28,383 nt of DNA from a virus: IMG/VR virus record IMGVR_UViG_3300007541_000141, positions 1-28,383 of that record. One strand, 5' to 3'. Position 1 is the stretch's first letter, and the number at the start of each line of letters is the position of its first letter. The notes under the pieces are model-generated. The model made no database searches. It had not been told where the DNA came from and saw nothing but the letters and a program-made list of their open reading frames with translations. Positions 3,037 to 8,220 of the stretch are shown here, piece by piece. The position numbers were made by a program, and so were the translations under genes.

Positions 3037-3747
3037 TTACCAGTTAGTAATGTACACCATGAACTGTCTAGGGACTAAAGATTTAAAATCAGGTTTAAAT
3101 ATTTTTTCTTTAAGACTATCATCTTGAAATCTTACTTTATCCATATCAATAAAAGGTTTTAAGAACGAATCTCTCCATTTACAAAACTTTTCTTCTGATC
3201 CGTATTGAGCGTCAAGGTGAATCATCACCGCAGTGTGTCTTACTTGCGTAGATAGAAATAGCGCGTTGTCAGGTGTAAGTATGTTGTACTCTGCTCCACA
3301 CGCACAAATTTTTAGAAAGTCGATCTTTTCGATGTTATAGGTGTCGACTAATTGTCTAAAAGACATTAGTCTAGGTTCTTCGCTGTTTATCACACTTTTC
3401 GAAACATACACATTCGAGAGATCAACATCGGTTTTTCCTATCGCAGCATTGATGGCAACGACAGGTGAATGCTCACGGTCTATGATGTGATCGCTGACGT
3501 TCTTGATAGCGGTCTTAAGTAAAGCCTTATTAGGTTCAATCATATAAACTTTCGTTGCTCCAGCATCTAGAGATTTAGCCGAAAACAATCCTATGCTAGC
3601 TCCAATGTCAACAACGACATCATCGGGTAGTACTTCGTACCACCAATCGTAGTTCTTAGCTACAAACATTTTATAGTGTAAATTTGCTACGTCGTTGATA
3701 GATAGCCCGCTGGTATCAGCTTCGAAAGTAAAAGTCTTAGGTCTCAT
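3037..3747 (-). CDS. FkbM-family SAM-dependent methyltransferase
   Basis: A 236-residue product read leftward from ATG at 3747. Residues about 44-54 (DVVVDIGASIG) form the glycine-rich SAM-binding loop of class I methyltransferases, followed by acidic-loop residues VYMIEPN. Spacing and the later KIDFLKICACGAEYNIL strand fit the FkbM family, which O-methylates sugars and related substrates; in most FkbM proteins the corresponding segment is L-K-I/V-D-x-E-G, and here KICACGAE deviates, with Cys replacing the usual Asp. GAGG lies about seven bases upstream of the start. It is the only minus-strand gene in the window and abuts the convergent stop with zero spacing, so it looks like a later-acquired accessory gene. 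Substrate unknown. Confidence 0.78.
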   Translation of the reverse strand: MRPKTFTFEADTSGLSINDVANLHYKMFVAKNYDWWYEVLPDDVVVDIGASIGLFSAKSLDAGATKVYMIEPNKALLKTAIKNVSDHIIDREHSPVVAINAAIGKTDVDLSNVYVSKSVINSEEPRLMSFRQLVDTYNIEKIDFLKICACGAEYNILTPDNALFLSTQVRHTAVMIHLDAQYGSEEKFCKWRDSFLKPFIDMDKVRFQDDSLKEKIFKPDFKSLVPRQFMVYITNW

Positions 3748-5023: not shown

Positions 5024-6520
5024 ATGAGCGAATTGATTAAGATCGAATACATTGACTCTGTGTACATGAAGGTATCTGCTGATTCAGGTACTCTCATGGA
5101 GATTGCTGAGTATTTTTCGTTTCGACCTGAAGGGTATCAATTCAATCCCCGCTATAAAGCTCGCGTATGGGACGGAATCATTCGTCTCTTTCAGCCAATG
5201 AGACCAAAGCTATACGTCGGTCTCTTTCCACATCTTAAAAAATTCTGCGAAGATCGAGGATACGATATTCAGGCTCCCGACAATATAGGAGCCGATGAAG
5301 TATTCGATGACGACTATGCTGTTCAACTCGCAGAAGAAATTAAATGCAAGTACACACCAAGAGATTATCAGAACGAGTATATCGTGAACGCTCTTCGAAA
5401 GCGTCGTTCTCTATCACTTAGTCCTACTTCTTCTGGTAAGTCATTAATCATTTATCTGATTCAGCAACACTACTATCAAGCTTTCGGACACCGTACACTC
5501 ATCATCGTTCCGACGATATCGCTAGTACATCAGATGGCCGGCGACTTCGTTGACTACGGCTGTGATGAGAGTATCATTTATCGTATTCAAGGTGGTGTTG
5601 ATAAGAATACTAAAGCTCCTATCGTAATCAGTACTTGGCAATCTCTAATTAAACAACCCAAAGAATGGTTCGACCAGTTTCGAGTCGTGCTAGGTGATGA
5701 AGCACATACGTTCCAGGCGAAGTCTCTTACGACTATCATGGAGAAGCTTACTAACTGTGAGTATAGGCATGGGTTCACTGGTACGCTAAAATCATCAGAA
5801 AGCAAAACTCACCGCATGGTGTTGGAAGGTTGTTTCGGACAAGTAAAGCGCTACGTCAATACTAAGAAGTTAATGGAAGACGGAACGGTAGCGGACTTTA
5901 AAGTCAAAGCGATCGTCTTGTCTCATAGTAACGAGACTCGAAAAGTTTTTAAAGATGCTATAAGTAAGATCAAGGAAGGAACAAAGAAGTGGCCTGCAGA
6001 ACGCGAGTTTATTGTAAACCACGAGAAGCGCAATAACTTTATTCGTAATCTCGTTCACAGCCTCGAAGGCCAAAACAATCTCATTCTCTTTGATCTGGTA
6101 GAGAAGCACGGTAAAGTACTTGAGCCTCTACTTCAAAAAGAAGGTAGAGAACTACACTTTATTTACGGTGGAACGACAGGAGAGGAGCGTGAACGTATTC
6201 GACATTTGGTGGAAAATGATGAAAGAAAATGCCATGATATACTTGCATCTTATGGCGTGTTTTCAACTGGTGTAAATTTACGAAGACTCGATAACGTGAT
6301 CTTCGCTTCGGGTTCGAAGTCCGAGATCAAAGTTTTACAGAGTATTGGTAGAACTTTAAGAAAGGCTGATGATTCGAATAAGGCTACGCTATATGATATA
6401 GCTGATGATCTTTCTGTCGGAGAGTCTTTTGAGAACTATACGCTTAAACATTTTAAAAAGCGGATAGAAATTTATGGGCAAGAAGAATTTGCTTTTAAGA
6501 TATTCACAGTTGAGATATAG
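5024..6520 (+). CDS. uvsW: UvsW RNA-DNA/DNA helicase
   Basis: A 498-residue product (T4 UvsW is 503). The N-terminal region SFRPEGYQFNPRYKARVWDG matches the T4 N-terminal domain. Superfamily 2 helicase motifs follow: Walker A SPTSSGKS at about 133-140, TLIIVPTISLVHQM (motif Ia), DEAH at 225-228 (T4 has DECH), TGT in GFTGTLKS (motif III), and C-terminal GVFSTGVNLRRLDNVI and QSIGRTLRKAD (motifs V and VI). UvsW unwinds R-loops and branched DNA, shutting off origin-dependent replication late in infection and supporting recombination-driven replication with UvsX/UvsY. It is third in the uvsY operon. Its ribosome site is unusually distant. A predicted antisense promoter downstream points into its 3' end. 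Confidence 0.92.
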   Translation: MSELIKIEYIDSVYMKVSADSGTLMEIAEYFSFRPEGYQFNPRYKARVWDGIIRLFQPMRPKLYVGLFPHLKKFCEDRGYDIQAPDNIGADEVFDDDYAVQLAEEIKCKYTPRDYQNEYIVNALRKRRSLSLSPTSSGKSLIIYLIQQHYYQAFGHRTLIIVPTISLVHQMAGDFVDYGCDESIIYRIQGGVDKNTKAPIVISTWQSLIKQPKEWFDQFRVVLGDEAHTFQAKSLTTIMEKLTNCEYRHGFTGTLKSSESKTHRMVLEGCFGQVKRYVNTKKLMEDGTVADFKVKAIVLSHSNETRKVFKDAISKIKEGTKKWPAEREFIVNHEKRNNFIRNLVHSLEGQNNLILFDLVEKHGKVLEPLLQKEGRELHFIYGGTTGEERERIRHLVENDERKCHDILASYGVFSTGVNLRRLDNVIFASGSKSEIKVLQSIGRTLRKADDSNKATLYDIADDLSVGESFENYTLKHFKKRIEIYGQEEFAFKIFTVEI

Positions 6521-6533
6521 ATCTATCTTAAAA
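6493..6533. repeat. 10-bp perfect inverted repeat at the uvsW 3' end
   Basis: TTTTAAGATA (6493-6502) and TATCTTAAAA (6524-6533) are perfect complements separated by 21 bases, straddling the uvsW stop codon. Neither strand has a T-run directly after the second arm, so it does not look like a standard terminator. On the minus strand the hairpin would form near the 5' end of the transcript predicted from the promoter at 6545-6573. Confidence 0.5.
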
Positions 6534-6544
6534 CCGGTGGTAGG

Positions 6545-6573
6545 ATTATAACACCTATTTTCTGAAATGTCAA
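6545..6573 (-). promoter_or_regulatory. Consensus sigma70 promoter on the minus strand, antisense to uvsW
   Basis: Read on the minus strand, TTGACA (plus-strand TGTCAA at 6568-6573) and TATAAT (plus-strand ATTATA at 6545-6550) are separated by exactly 17 bases, both hexamers perfect. Predicted start is near 6538, heading left into the end of uvsW where no minus-strand gene is credible. A 7-bp dyad, ACCTATT (6553-6559) and AATAGGT (6572-6578), overlaps the -35 and could be an operator. An A-tract region on its upstream side resembles an UP element. Confidence 0.72.
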
Positions 6574-6577
6574 TAGG

Positions 6578-6612
6578 TAATTGAAAAAAAATTGAAAAAA
6601 ACACTAAAACAG
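6578..6612. promoter_or_regulatory. A-tract, UP-element-like region between divergent promoters
   Basis: Two near-identical blocks, AATTGAAAAAAA repeated about every 11-12 bases between 6579 and 6601, followed by ACACTAAAAC, lie between the minus-strand -35 (6568-6573) and the plus-strand -35 (6613-6618). Phased A-tracts upstream of -35 boxes bind the alpha-subunit C-terminal domain of RNA polymerase, and here they could serve both promoters. Confidence 0.5.
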
Positions 6613-6641
6613 TTGACAATTAAGCAAATTTGTTATAGAAT
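6613..6641 (+). promoter_or_regulatory. Sigma70 promoter for gp55 operon
   Basis: TTGACA at 6613-6618 and TAGAAT at 6636-6641 with a 17-base spacer; the -35 is perfect and sits in the recurring CAGTTGACA context, and the -10 differs at one position. The predicted start near 6648 leaves a leader of about 26 bases. TATAATGGGG at 6652-6661 is a second -10-like sequence but has no -35 at the right distance; TATAAATC at 6641-6648 also resembles a late box. Confidence 0.7.
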
Positions 6642-6673
6642 ATAAATCTTTTATAATGGGGTAAAACTATAAA

Positions 6674-7177
6674 ATGGCAAAGAAACGAAACTATGTGAAC
6701 AACCCAGATCTTTTGCAGGCGCTGATTGACTATAGAGAAGCGTGTAAAGAAGCAGAAGATAGCGGAGACAAAATCCCTCAAGTTCCAGAATATATCGGCA
6801 AATGTATCTTACTTATAGCGCAACGCTTAGCTACTAAACCTAACTTCTCTGGATACTCCTATAAAGAAGAAATGATCTCGGACGGAATCGAAAACTGCTT
6901 GCAGTACATTCATAATTTCGATCCAGAAAAATCTTCTAATCCCTTCGCGTATTTTACGCAGATCATTTGGTTTGCTTTTCTTCGCCGCATTCAAAAAGAA
7001 AAGAAACAAACCTACATCAAATTTAAAGCATCTCAAAACATGTTAACACAGTCCCTCATTGAAGACTCTAACGAGGATCCTATTCAAATGTATGAACCTC
7101 CTGAATATATGAGCGAATTCATTGAGGATTTCGAAAACAAACTTAAGAATAAGAAAGACGAGGACGAAGAAGAATGA
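6674..7177 (+). CDS. 55: Late-transcription sigma factor gp55
   Basis: A 167-residue product (T4 gp55 is 185). The core YKEEMISDGIENCLQYIHNF followed by DPEKSSNPFAYFTQIIWFAF and LRRIQKEKKQ is the reduced sigma region 2 typical of gp55: it contacts the beta' coiled coil of host RNA polymerase and reads the TATAAATA late promoter. T4 gp55 also carries a C-terminal peptide that binds the gp45 clamp to activate late transcription. Here the hydrophobic segment EFIEDFENKL (about residues 148-157) is followed by a strongly acidic tail (KKDEDEEE), so the clamp-binding element may be internal rather than terminal. It is preceded by its own sigma70 promoter and overlaps the next gene by four bases. Confidence 0.9.
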   Translation: MAKKRNYVNNPDLLQALIDYREACKEAEDSGDKIPQVPEYIGKCILLIAQRLATKPNFSGYSYKEEMISDGIENCLQYIHNFDPEKSSNPFAYFTQIIWFAFLRRIQKEKKQTYIKFKASQNMLTQSLIEDSNEDPIQMYEPPEYMSEFIEDFENKLKNKKDEDEEE

Positions 7178-7602
7178 AAGTATTAGTATTTGGACTTCCA
7201 GGTTCAGGGAAGAGCACTCTAGCTGAGCCACTCGCAGAATTAGTAAATGGTGTCTGGTTAAACGCAGACGCAGTACGTAAAGAATATGATGACTGGGACT
7301 TCAGTGACGAAGGACGAATGCGTCAAGCAATGCGCATGCGCTACCTGTCTGATGGTGTGTCAAAAGCCGGAAAGATTGCGATCACCGATTTTGTATGCCC
7401 ATTCCAAAAAGCGCGAGATTCGTTCGATCCTGACTACACTATCTGGTTAGACACGATTAAAGAAGGTCGCTTTGAAGATACGAATAAAATCTTCGAAAAA
7501 CCTCGGCACGTTGACTACCACATCACAGAATGGTTTCCTGACACACATAAAAATCTAAAACCTTTAATAGAAAGAGCATTCGCACAATGGTTGAAAAGGT
7601 AA
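7174..7602 (+). CDS. P-loop kinase, adenylylsulfate-kinase-like
   Basis: A 142-residue product starting MKVLVFGLPGSGKSTLAEPL. The Walker A loop GLPGSGKS is at residues 7-14, and LNADAVRKEYDDWDFSDEGRM followed by AITDFVCPFQKARDSF follows the order of CysC (LDGD-VR, FS-x-R, a strand ending in F-x-x-P). APS kinase phosphorylates adenylylsulfate to PAPS, the sulfate donor. The protein is shorter than cellular CysC (about 200), so it may be a minimal or repurposed P-loop kinase. It overlaps gp55 (ATGA) and is followed by a DUF2061 protein and an HxGH nucleotidyltransferase, a trio I believe recurs in marine T4-like phages. A sulfotransferase-like gene lies at 14501. Confidence 0.7.
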   Translation: MKVLVFGLPGSGKSTLAEPLAELVNGVWLNADAVRKEYDDWDFSDEGRMRQAMRMRYLSDGVSKAGKIAITDFVCPFQKARDSFDPDYTIWLDTIKEGRFEDTNKIFEKPRHVDYHITEWFPDTHKNLKPLIERAFAQWLKR

Positions 7603-7808
7603 GTCGTAAACGTCACATCGCTAAAACGCTTACATGGAGAGTACTAGCAACAACAGATACTTTTATCATCGCATGGTTGATTACAGGTCAGGTTGATTGG
7701 GCCGCGGGTATCGCTAGTATAGAAGTAGCTACAAAGATGGTATTGTACTACTGGCACGAACGGTTATGGTACAATCACATCAAATATGGAGTAAACAAAG
7801 ATGTATAA
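7587..7808 (+). CDS. DUF2061 membrane protein
   Basis: A 73-residue product starting MVEKVSRKRHIAKTLTWRVL. The R-H-I-x-K-T-L-T-W-R start, a TDTFIIAWLITGQ hydrophobic segment, then GIASIEVATKMVLYYWHERLWY match the DUF2061 family of small membrane proteins (Pfam family recalled, not searched). Two short hydrophobic helices are visible at about residues 19-35 and 40-56. In bacteria this family is found near or fused to sulfate-assimilation genes, which fits the APS-kinase-like gene that it overlaps by 16 bases. It overlaps the following nucleotidyltransferase gene by eight bases, so all three are probably translated together. The exact role is unknown. Confidence 0.8.
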   Translation: MVEKVSRKRHIAKTLTWRVLATTDTFIIAWLITGQVDWAAGIASIEVATKMVLYYWHERLWYNHIKYGVNKDV

Positions 7809-8220
7809 TTCTACTTTCGATTTTAAGAAGCCTACGGTACAAATGTTAGGTCGCTGGCAACCTTGGCATCCAGGTCATACTGCTTTATTCAAAAAAGCCT
7901 TGACATTGACCGGACAAGTTGTTATAATGGTACGTGAAGTATATGGTTTTGACGGAGACGCAGGCGCGGGTCGTACGAATGATCAGTCTGATAATCCTTT
8001 CGGCGAGATCACAGTTATAGATAATATTAAATCTGCATTAGAAGCCGAGGGTTATTACGATGGAGAGCATTATATTATTATGTGTGTTCCTAATATCGTT
8101 GATATTTCTTATGGGCGTGGCGTGGGTTATACTTTTACTGAACATGATCTTGGAGAGGATGTACACGCTATTAGCGCGACTAAGATCCGTGAAAAAATGA
8201 GAGAAGAAGGAAAATTATGA
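7801..8220 (+). CDS. HxGH-type nucleotidyltransferase
   Basis: A 139-residue product. The sequence GRWQPWHPGHTALFKKAL (residues 17-34) contains the HxGH nucleotide-binding signature (His23, His26), and ISATKIR (124-130) is the ISxTxxR-type second motif, both diagnostic of the cytidylyltransferase/NMN-adenylyltransferase superfamily. These enzymes transfer a nucleotide from CTP or ATP to a phosphorylated acceptor. The acceptor cannot be read from sequence: NMN, a sugar or lipid phosphate, or (by neighbourhood) a sulfur-related substrate are possible. It overlaps both neighbours (eight bases upstream, four downstream). A perfect sigma70 promoter lies inside the coding sequence at 7900-7928. Confidence 0.78.
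   Translation: MYNSTFDFKKPTVQMLGRWQPWHPGHTALFKKALTLTGQVVIMVREVYGFDGDAGAGRTNDQSDNPFGEITVIDNIKSALEAEGYYDGEHYIIMCVPNIVDISYGRGVGYTFTEHDLGEDVHAISATKIREKMREEGKL
7900..7928 (+). promoter_or_regulatory. Intragenic consensus sigma70 promoter
   Basis: TTGACA at 7900-7905 and TATAAT at 7923-7928, 17-base spacer, with TGT before the -10. Both hexamers are perfect although the sequence also encodes LTLTGQVVIMV of the nucleotidyltransferase. Transcription from about 7935 would serve peptide deformylase, gp47 and gp46 independently of gp55. Confidence 0.65.

Follow-up and report, generated by a model that had tools for sequence, protein, structure and literature searches.

In phage T4, the replication origins oriF (ori(uvsY)) and oriG (ori(34)) are about 100 bp long, and a promoter together with an A+T-rich unwinding element suffices for them (PMC3016281). 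Both use R-loop primers, have little sequence in common and are shut down by UvsW, and a further T4 origin, oriE, uses an early promoter (PMC3016281). Antisense transcription has been described in the T4-like cyanophage S-PM2, where CfrI, an RNA of ~225 nt that is antisense to psbA and a homing endonuclease gene, was detected, and the early genes of S-PM2 and Syn9 have σ70-like motifs upstream (PMC2984593). A third related system is the ops element of RfaH, a short hairpin in the non-template strand of the transcription bubble (PMC5995543). For Syn9, only a predicted single origin is mentioned (PMC2984593). Indeed, both the timing of late transcription and the sites at which replication starts are largely unknown for T4-like cyanophages. 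These phages are among the most abundant viruses in water.

The window, that is, the whole stretch of 28,383 nucleotides analysed here (IMG/VR virus record IMGVR_UViG_3300007541_000141), belongs to a T4-like virus of water bacteria and carries uvsW and gene 55 on the plus strand, separated by a gap of 153 bp that houses a promoter pointing the opposite way. The features of this junction are as follows.

5024–6520, plus strand: uvsW helicase gene (phrog_16, E 3e-94), whose 3′ end would be overlapped by the predicted antisense transcript
6533–6541, minus strand: candidate start hairpin of the window copy, ACC-acc-GGT, weak, with 3 bp only (4–6 bp in many relatives)
6538, minus strand: predicted transcription start (+1), an A at the seventh base past the −10, placed from σ70 geometry
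6545–6550, minus strand: −10 hexamer TATAAT, exact match (ATTATA on the plus strand), spacer 17, conserved
6568–6573, minus strand: −35 hexamer TTGACA, exact match (TGTCAA on the plus strand), kept in relatives
6613–6641, plus strand: gene 55 promoter, TTGACA-N17-TAGAAT (11/12), back-to-back with the antisense promoter
6674–7177, plus strand: gene 55, late sigma factor (phrog_234, E 3e-62), the gene to which the element is tied across phages

The minus-strand promoter at 6545–6573 is an exact TTGACA-N17-TATAAT (12/12), as the earlier note had described. Its hexamer spacing lies within the 16–18 nt of σ70 promoters and its predicted purine start ~7 nt past the −10; the +1 position is a purine in 73% of 73 lineages. 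The window contains eight exact promoters (0.03 expected by chance). Such promoters are thus a common feature of this phage, and since the seven others all lie on the plus strand, what sets 6545–6573 apart is its direction. The next long minus-strand open reading frame (ORF; 3037–3747, methyltransferase-like) lies ~2.8 kb downstream, in agreement with the earlier statement that no minus-strand gene follows for nearly 3 kb, and the predicted RNA would reach uvsW ~18 nt past +1. We are almost certain that the promoter is real and conserved, and its exact retention in relatives with a wholly changed spacer makes 6545–6573 very probably a functional antisense promoter. Two further features pointed out previously, a 7-bp dyad over the −35 (ACCTATT/AATAGGT, 6553–6559 and 6572–6578) and a 10-bp inverted repeat (6493–6502 and 6524–6533), are indeed present in the window but, judged by eye, absent in relatives; both the dyad (6553–6578) and the repeat (6493–6533) are probably incidental. 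A megablast search of window positions 5500–7500 against phages gave no match, and a tRNA search found none.

The promoter recurs widely among relatives. We compared 117 distinct T4-like regions, using the 300 bases upstream of gene 55 in each; the gene 55 search contributed 80 further loci. A minus promoter matching at least 11 of 12 positions is found upstream of gene 55 in 73 of the 117 regions (0.5 expected), and an exact one in 47 (0 expected). In the uvsW–gene 55 gaps of relatives whose uvsW is 64–91% identical, the exact minus promoter occurs nearly always, with a spacer of 16 or 17. The sequence between the hexamers turns over wholly, being different in every relative while the promoter stays. 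In 23 of the 117 regions, including those of Melnitz, Marzo, MA01 and the relative L010, the best match falls below 10/12. Conservation in relatives had been proposed as a check on the promoter, and the outcome is divided: the promoter is exact in most relatives around a scrambled spacer, but is missing in L010 and L011, whose uvsW is 86% identical. These two lack it because another ORF, metallophosphoesterase-like, occupies the gap (5796–6500 in L010). The loss counts against the promoter being strictly required at this site and does not count against its having a function. A chance or decayed promoter might be expected in an A+T-rich phage and would fit L010 and L011, but this explanation is contradicted by the conservation, with observed counts of 73 and 47 against the 0.5 and 0 expected, and we find it hardly conceivable. 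An extra ORF between uvsW and gene 55 also occurs in L019 (3474–4022, methyltransferase-like by eye), where the antisense promoter is kept. In many compact freshwater phages (L128–L180), a second TTGACA lies within the spacer upstream of gene 55, in the layout TTGACA-N5-TTGACA-N6-TANNNT, an 11-bp repeat on one helix face.

The conserved part beyond the hexamers is a hairpin that straddles the predicted start, from about −6 to +9, directly past the −10. Most copies can form a stem of 4–6 bp, with a loop that is often T-purine-T over −1 to +2. Stems starting at offset 0 occur in 32% of 73 lineages and those starting at offset 1 in 26%, versus ~0–5% at most other offsets; a second peak at offset −5 arises from the loop TTAT matching the −10 itself. 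Watson-Crick stems of at least 4 bp are found in 29 of 73 lineages, versus 3.7 when right arms are re-dealt (maximum 11 in 2000 permutations), figures that exaggerate independence because the lineages share ancestry. There are 29 different 4-nt arm sequences, and the stem covaries. Like the ordinary early σ70 promoters of T4-like cyanophages, the element consists of TTGACA and TATAAT; unlike it, the other exact promoters point at genes and have no hairpin. A stem of at least 4 bp is present in 19 of 28 exact minus promoters versus 1 of 41 plus promoters, and the hairpin is thus specific to the antisense promoter. The exact promoter and start hairpin are kept across dozens of related viruses, which argues that the module does something important.

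The pairing appears to take place on one strand. Stems that reach 5 bp only through G·U pairs are found in 14 lineages on the minus (non-template) strand versus 1 on the plus strand, an asymmetry that neither a duplex operator nor a hairpin in plus-strand mRNA would be expected to produce. We therefore rejected a palindromic operator for a DNA-binding protein, as well as a plus-strand hairpin or terminator of uvsW mRNA, the terminator also because a U tract is missing. Since polymerase would start within the loop, the left arm cannot be part of the RNA. It is simplest to suppose that what folds is the DNA of the non-template strand, at a stage when it is unpaired in either the initiating bubble or an R-loop. 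The cleanest single case for pairing is provided by the tandem copies of L120, whose stems differ and are each self-complementary (AGCG/CGCT and AGAG/CTCT).

Pairing in the non-template strand of the transcription bubble, to which the G·U asymmetry points, is shared with ops, whose non-template hairpin recruits RfaH (PMC5995543). By analogy, the hairpin could recruit a transcription factor, and antisense transcription would then be factor-modified or antiterminated; a hairpin in the initial bubble that is strand-specific and sequence-flexible would suit such a role. However, the target of ops is elongating polymerase and its sequence is what is recognised, whereas the present hairpin lies at the start and varies freely in stem sequence. 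Furthermore, there is no downstream gene to profit, and we regard factor loading as quite improbable.

Copies of the element occur elsewhere in the genomes. Complete genomes contain 1–3 dispersed sites, sometimes in tandem, that are mostly gene-less and antisense, with genes in unannotated genomes taken from simple ORF calls. The copies located are listed below.

G001: 96384 and 96478 (tandem), and 177417
G003: 174958 and 175052 (tandem), and 70784
G002: 79143 and 160004; also 9446, which is inside an ORF and may be chance
Sinorhizobium phage phiN3: 24954, 86123 and 159572
S-PM2: 74932 and 153193
Sf-FR1: 45508–45554, antisense to the gene preceding a DNA helicase gene

Copies of one genome resemble each other over the stretch between the −35 and about +20 but diverge beyond it, and stems differ among some copies of the same genome (G002, phiN3). 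Most copies are situated at operon junctions, where they point antisense into a gene's 3′ end. One of the phiN3 copies lies upstream of gp33, gp59 (helicase loader) and gp32. Two copies read in the sense direction into genes, S-PM2 153193 and P-SSM7 ~46147. The positions in phiN3 (24954, 86123 and 159572 of 206713) and G002 (9446, 79143 and 160004 of 217966) are suggestive of even spacing, although they are few points. Tandem promoter-hairpin duplications, 76–94 bp apart, are found in L120 (upstream of gene 55), G001 (96384/96478) and G003 (174958/175052). In G004, an exact minus-strand promoter at 80823 with a 5-bp start hairpin (AAGAC-tatc-GTCTT) lies antisense in a long tail-fibre-like ORF. 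Three consecutive exact minus promoters, 74–77 bp apart, are present without a start hairpin in L187 (Melnitz-3, 71500–74500).

Across phages, the promoter follows gene 55 and not uvsW. In phiN3 and in cultured cyanophages (S-PM2, S-CAM1, S-RSM4, S-8S55, P-SSM7, S-RIM8 and others), a T4-GC 139 gene intervenes between uvsW and gene 55, and the promoter adjoins gene 55 and points into gene 139 instead of uvsW. L019 is the opposite case, since its promoter lies 58 nt past uvsW and the inserted gene parts it from gene 55. This tie to gene 55 suggests an insulator or timer, in which host polymerase on or from the antisense promoter would collide or compete with sense transcription at the operon junction. 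Gene 55 expression or readthrough from the upstream operon would then be delayed until σ70 transcription is shut off, and the hairpin would slow promoter escape. In compact freshwater phages, the −35 begins only ~17–22 nt before the gene 55 start. The gap there is largely taken up by the element, frequently with no plus promoter left upstream of gene 55, as would be expected of such a device. Consistent with it as well, the antisense −35 in S-PM2 lies ~5 bp from the −35 of the plus promoter, the two promoters overlap in P-SSM7, the other copies are likewise at operon junctions, and the sequence of the RNA would be irrelevant, which matches what is observed. In many phages, however, the gene 55 promoter is downstream of the element and out of reach of a roadblock, and the sense-oriented copies of S-PM2 and P-SSM7 fit badly. 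We consider transcriptional insulation possible but somewhat doubtful.

The body of the predicted RNA has little to distinguish it. Measured against mononucleotide shuffles, the window RNA is not unusually stable (folding z −0.9 for +1 to +80 and +0.2 for +1 to +150), and in 71 relatives the mean z is −0.4 and −0.5 over the same two lengths. Terminator-like sites on the minus strand of the relatives' predicted RNAs are near chance (4 versus 1.8), and with no excess of fold or terminator, neither a structured small RNA nor an intrinsic terminator on the minus strand is supported. The uvsW 3′-end codons under the predicted RNA have no excess synonymous conservation (ratio 1.04–1.07 versus a gene mean of 1.14), an Rfam search of the window and of 5900–6700 gave nothing credible, and no ORF of at least 50 aa starts just downstream of the promoter in the window.

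These results bear on two RNA-based explanations. In the first, a cis-antisense RNA would pair with the 3′ end of the upstream mRNA, that of uvsW here and of gene 139 in cyanophages, and alter its stability or translation. The strength and orientation of the promoter and the overlap with uvsW in the window would fit, and a cis-antisense RNA is known from S-PM2 in CfrI (PMC2984593), likewise a case of antisense transcription in a T4-like cyanophage, as predicted here. Unlike CfrI, the RNA here is a predicted one, and neither its target nor its sequence is conserved: the promoter faces uvsW in the window's group but gene 139 in cyanophages, and the additional copies face still other genes. The RNA also has no terminator or fold, the overlap carries no synonymous constraint, and the hairpin would be left unexplained. 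We therefore think cis-antisense control unlikely, and the more specific proposal of the earlier note, an antisense RNA damping uvsW, is unsupported, given that the promoter tracks gene 55. In the second explanation, a small RNA acting in trans, which the same note had offered as an alternative, or the leader of a small protein would be made from this strong gene-less promoter, and the first ~20 nt are indeed common to copies within a genome. However, the copies diverge past +20 and have no conserved body, fold or terminator, and we judge this explanation very improbable, the more so as the dyad and the inverted repeat are unconserved as RNA structure. Our searches of the literature, mostly open-access so that an earlier description is possible, found no paper that links uvsW to an antisense RNA and none that treats cyanophage promoters in connection with both antisense transcription and uvsW.

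Together, these observations describe a cis-acting promoter without a gene, that is, a putative strong antisense host-σ70 promoter with a short non-template start hairpin. The promoter is predicted to be strong and has no gene, and its start fold is constrained whereas the RNA body is not; this suggests that initiation itself is the function, and we infer that the initiating complex or its R-loop, and not the RNA sequence, would be what is selected. The leading reading, by analogy with T4 oriF and oriG, is an R-loop replication origin, to which transcriptional insulation and cis-antisense control are close rivals. Host polymerase would transcribe early from the antisense promoter and leave an RNA-DNA hybrid just downstream of it. 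With the bubble kept open partly by the non-template hairpin, leading-strand DNA synthesis would be primed by the 3′ end of the RNA, as at oriF and oriG. UvsW, the helicase that removes such R-loops late in T4 infection, is encoded next door. The retention of an exact promoter around a scrambled spacer, the covarying hairpin, the unconstrained RNA and the 1–3 mostly gene-less antisense sites per genome are in agreement with an origin, and a promoter is present, as within the minimal T4 origins. Like oriF and oriG, the element has a promoter with no need of a gene product, little common sequence, few copies per genome and UvsW nearby or involved (PMC3016281). Unlike the T4 origins, which use MotA middle promoters (or, in oriE, an early one), it has a plain σ70 consensus and a start-straddling hairpin, and its putative origin role has no support from skew. 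We know of no T4 origin with such a hairpin.

Several results temper the origin reading. Fourfold-site skew at 12 copies has no consistent change and gives no sign of an origin, a weak test because T4-like phages turn to recombination-dependent replication; raw GC skew follows gene strand, is thus uninformative and was set aside. Downstream A+T content is only modestly raised, and not at every copy: it is at the 96th percentile in the window, the 100th in S-CAM1, the 61st–100th in S-PM2 depending on offset and near the 50th in G002, while in phiN3 it is at the 78th–94th just past the start and about average further on. The sense copies, the 3-bp stem of the window hairpin and the 23 regions lacking the promoter also count against an origin. 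Furthermore, an origin does not predict the tie to gene 55, which a role in timing or insulation explains better. Given the absent skew support, the uneven A+T content and this tie, we hold the R-loop origin only as a tentative possibility. We likewise regard as doubtful, though conceivable, the broader proposal of a widespread promoter class in T4-like phages of cyanobacteria, rhizobia and freshwater hosts, with a sequence-free non-template hairpin at about +1 that would function in the initiating complex and 1–3 copies per genome that would also serve as R-loop origins. The module lies beside the late sigma gene and uvsW in the cultured phages S-PM2, S-RSM4, S-CAM1 and phiN3, which makes the questions of timing and origin directly testable. 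A requirement that one strand of the start site be able to fold would, if true, by itself make this promoter element unusual.

Other features of the window lie outside this junction. Downstream of gene 55, a single kinase family (phrog_10255) is matched by two adjoining ORFs, in its first half by 7174–7602 and in its second by 7801–8220. A small ORF (7587–7808) lies between the two, and the arrangement represents either a split gene or two domains. An exact plus promoter (7900–7928) lies inside the second half-kinase ORF; in the relatives L012, L016, L021 and L023, a similar sequence (GGTACGTGA.. or GGTTCGAGA..) comes after an exact promoter. At three plus-strand promoters of the window (14184, 15217 and 20110), GGAG or GGTAAG directly follows the −10 and an ATG lies 9–11 nt later, so that a transcript starting at +1 would be near-leaderless and lack the ribosome site.
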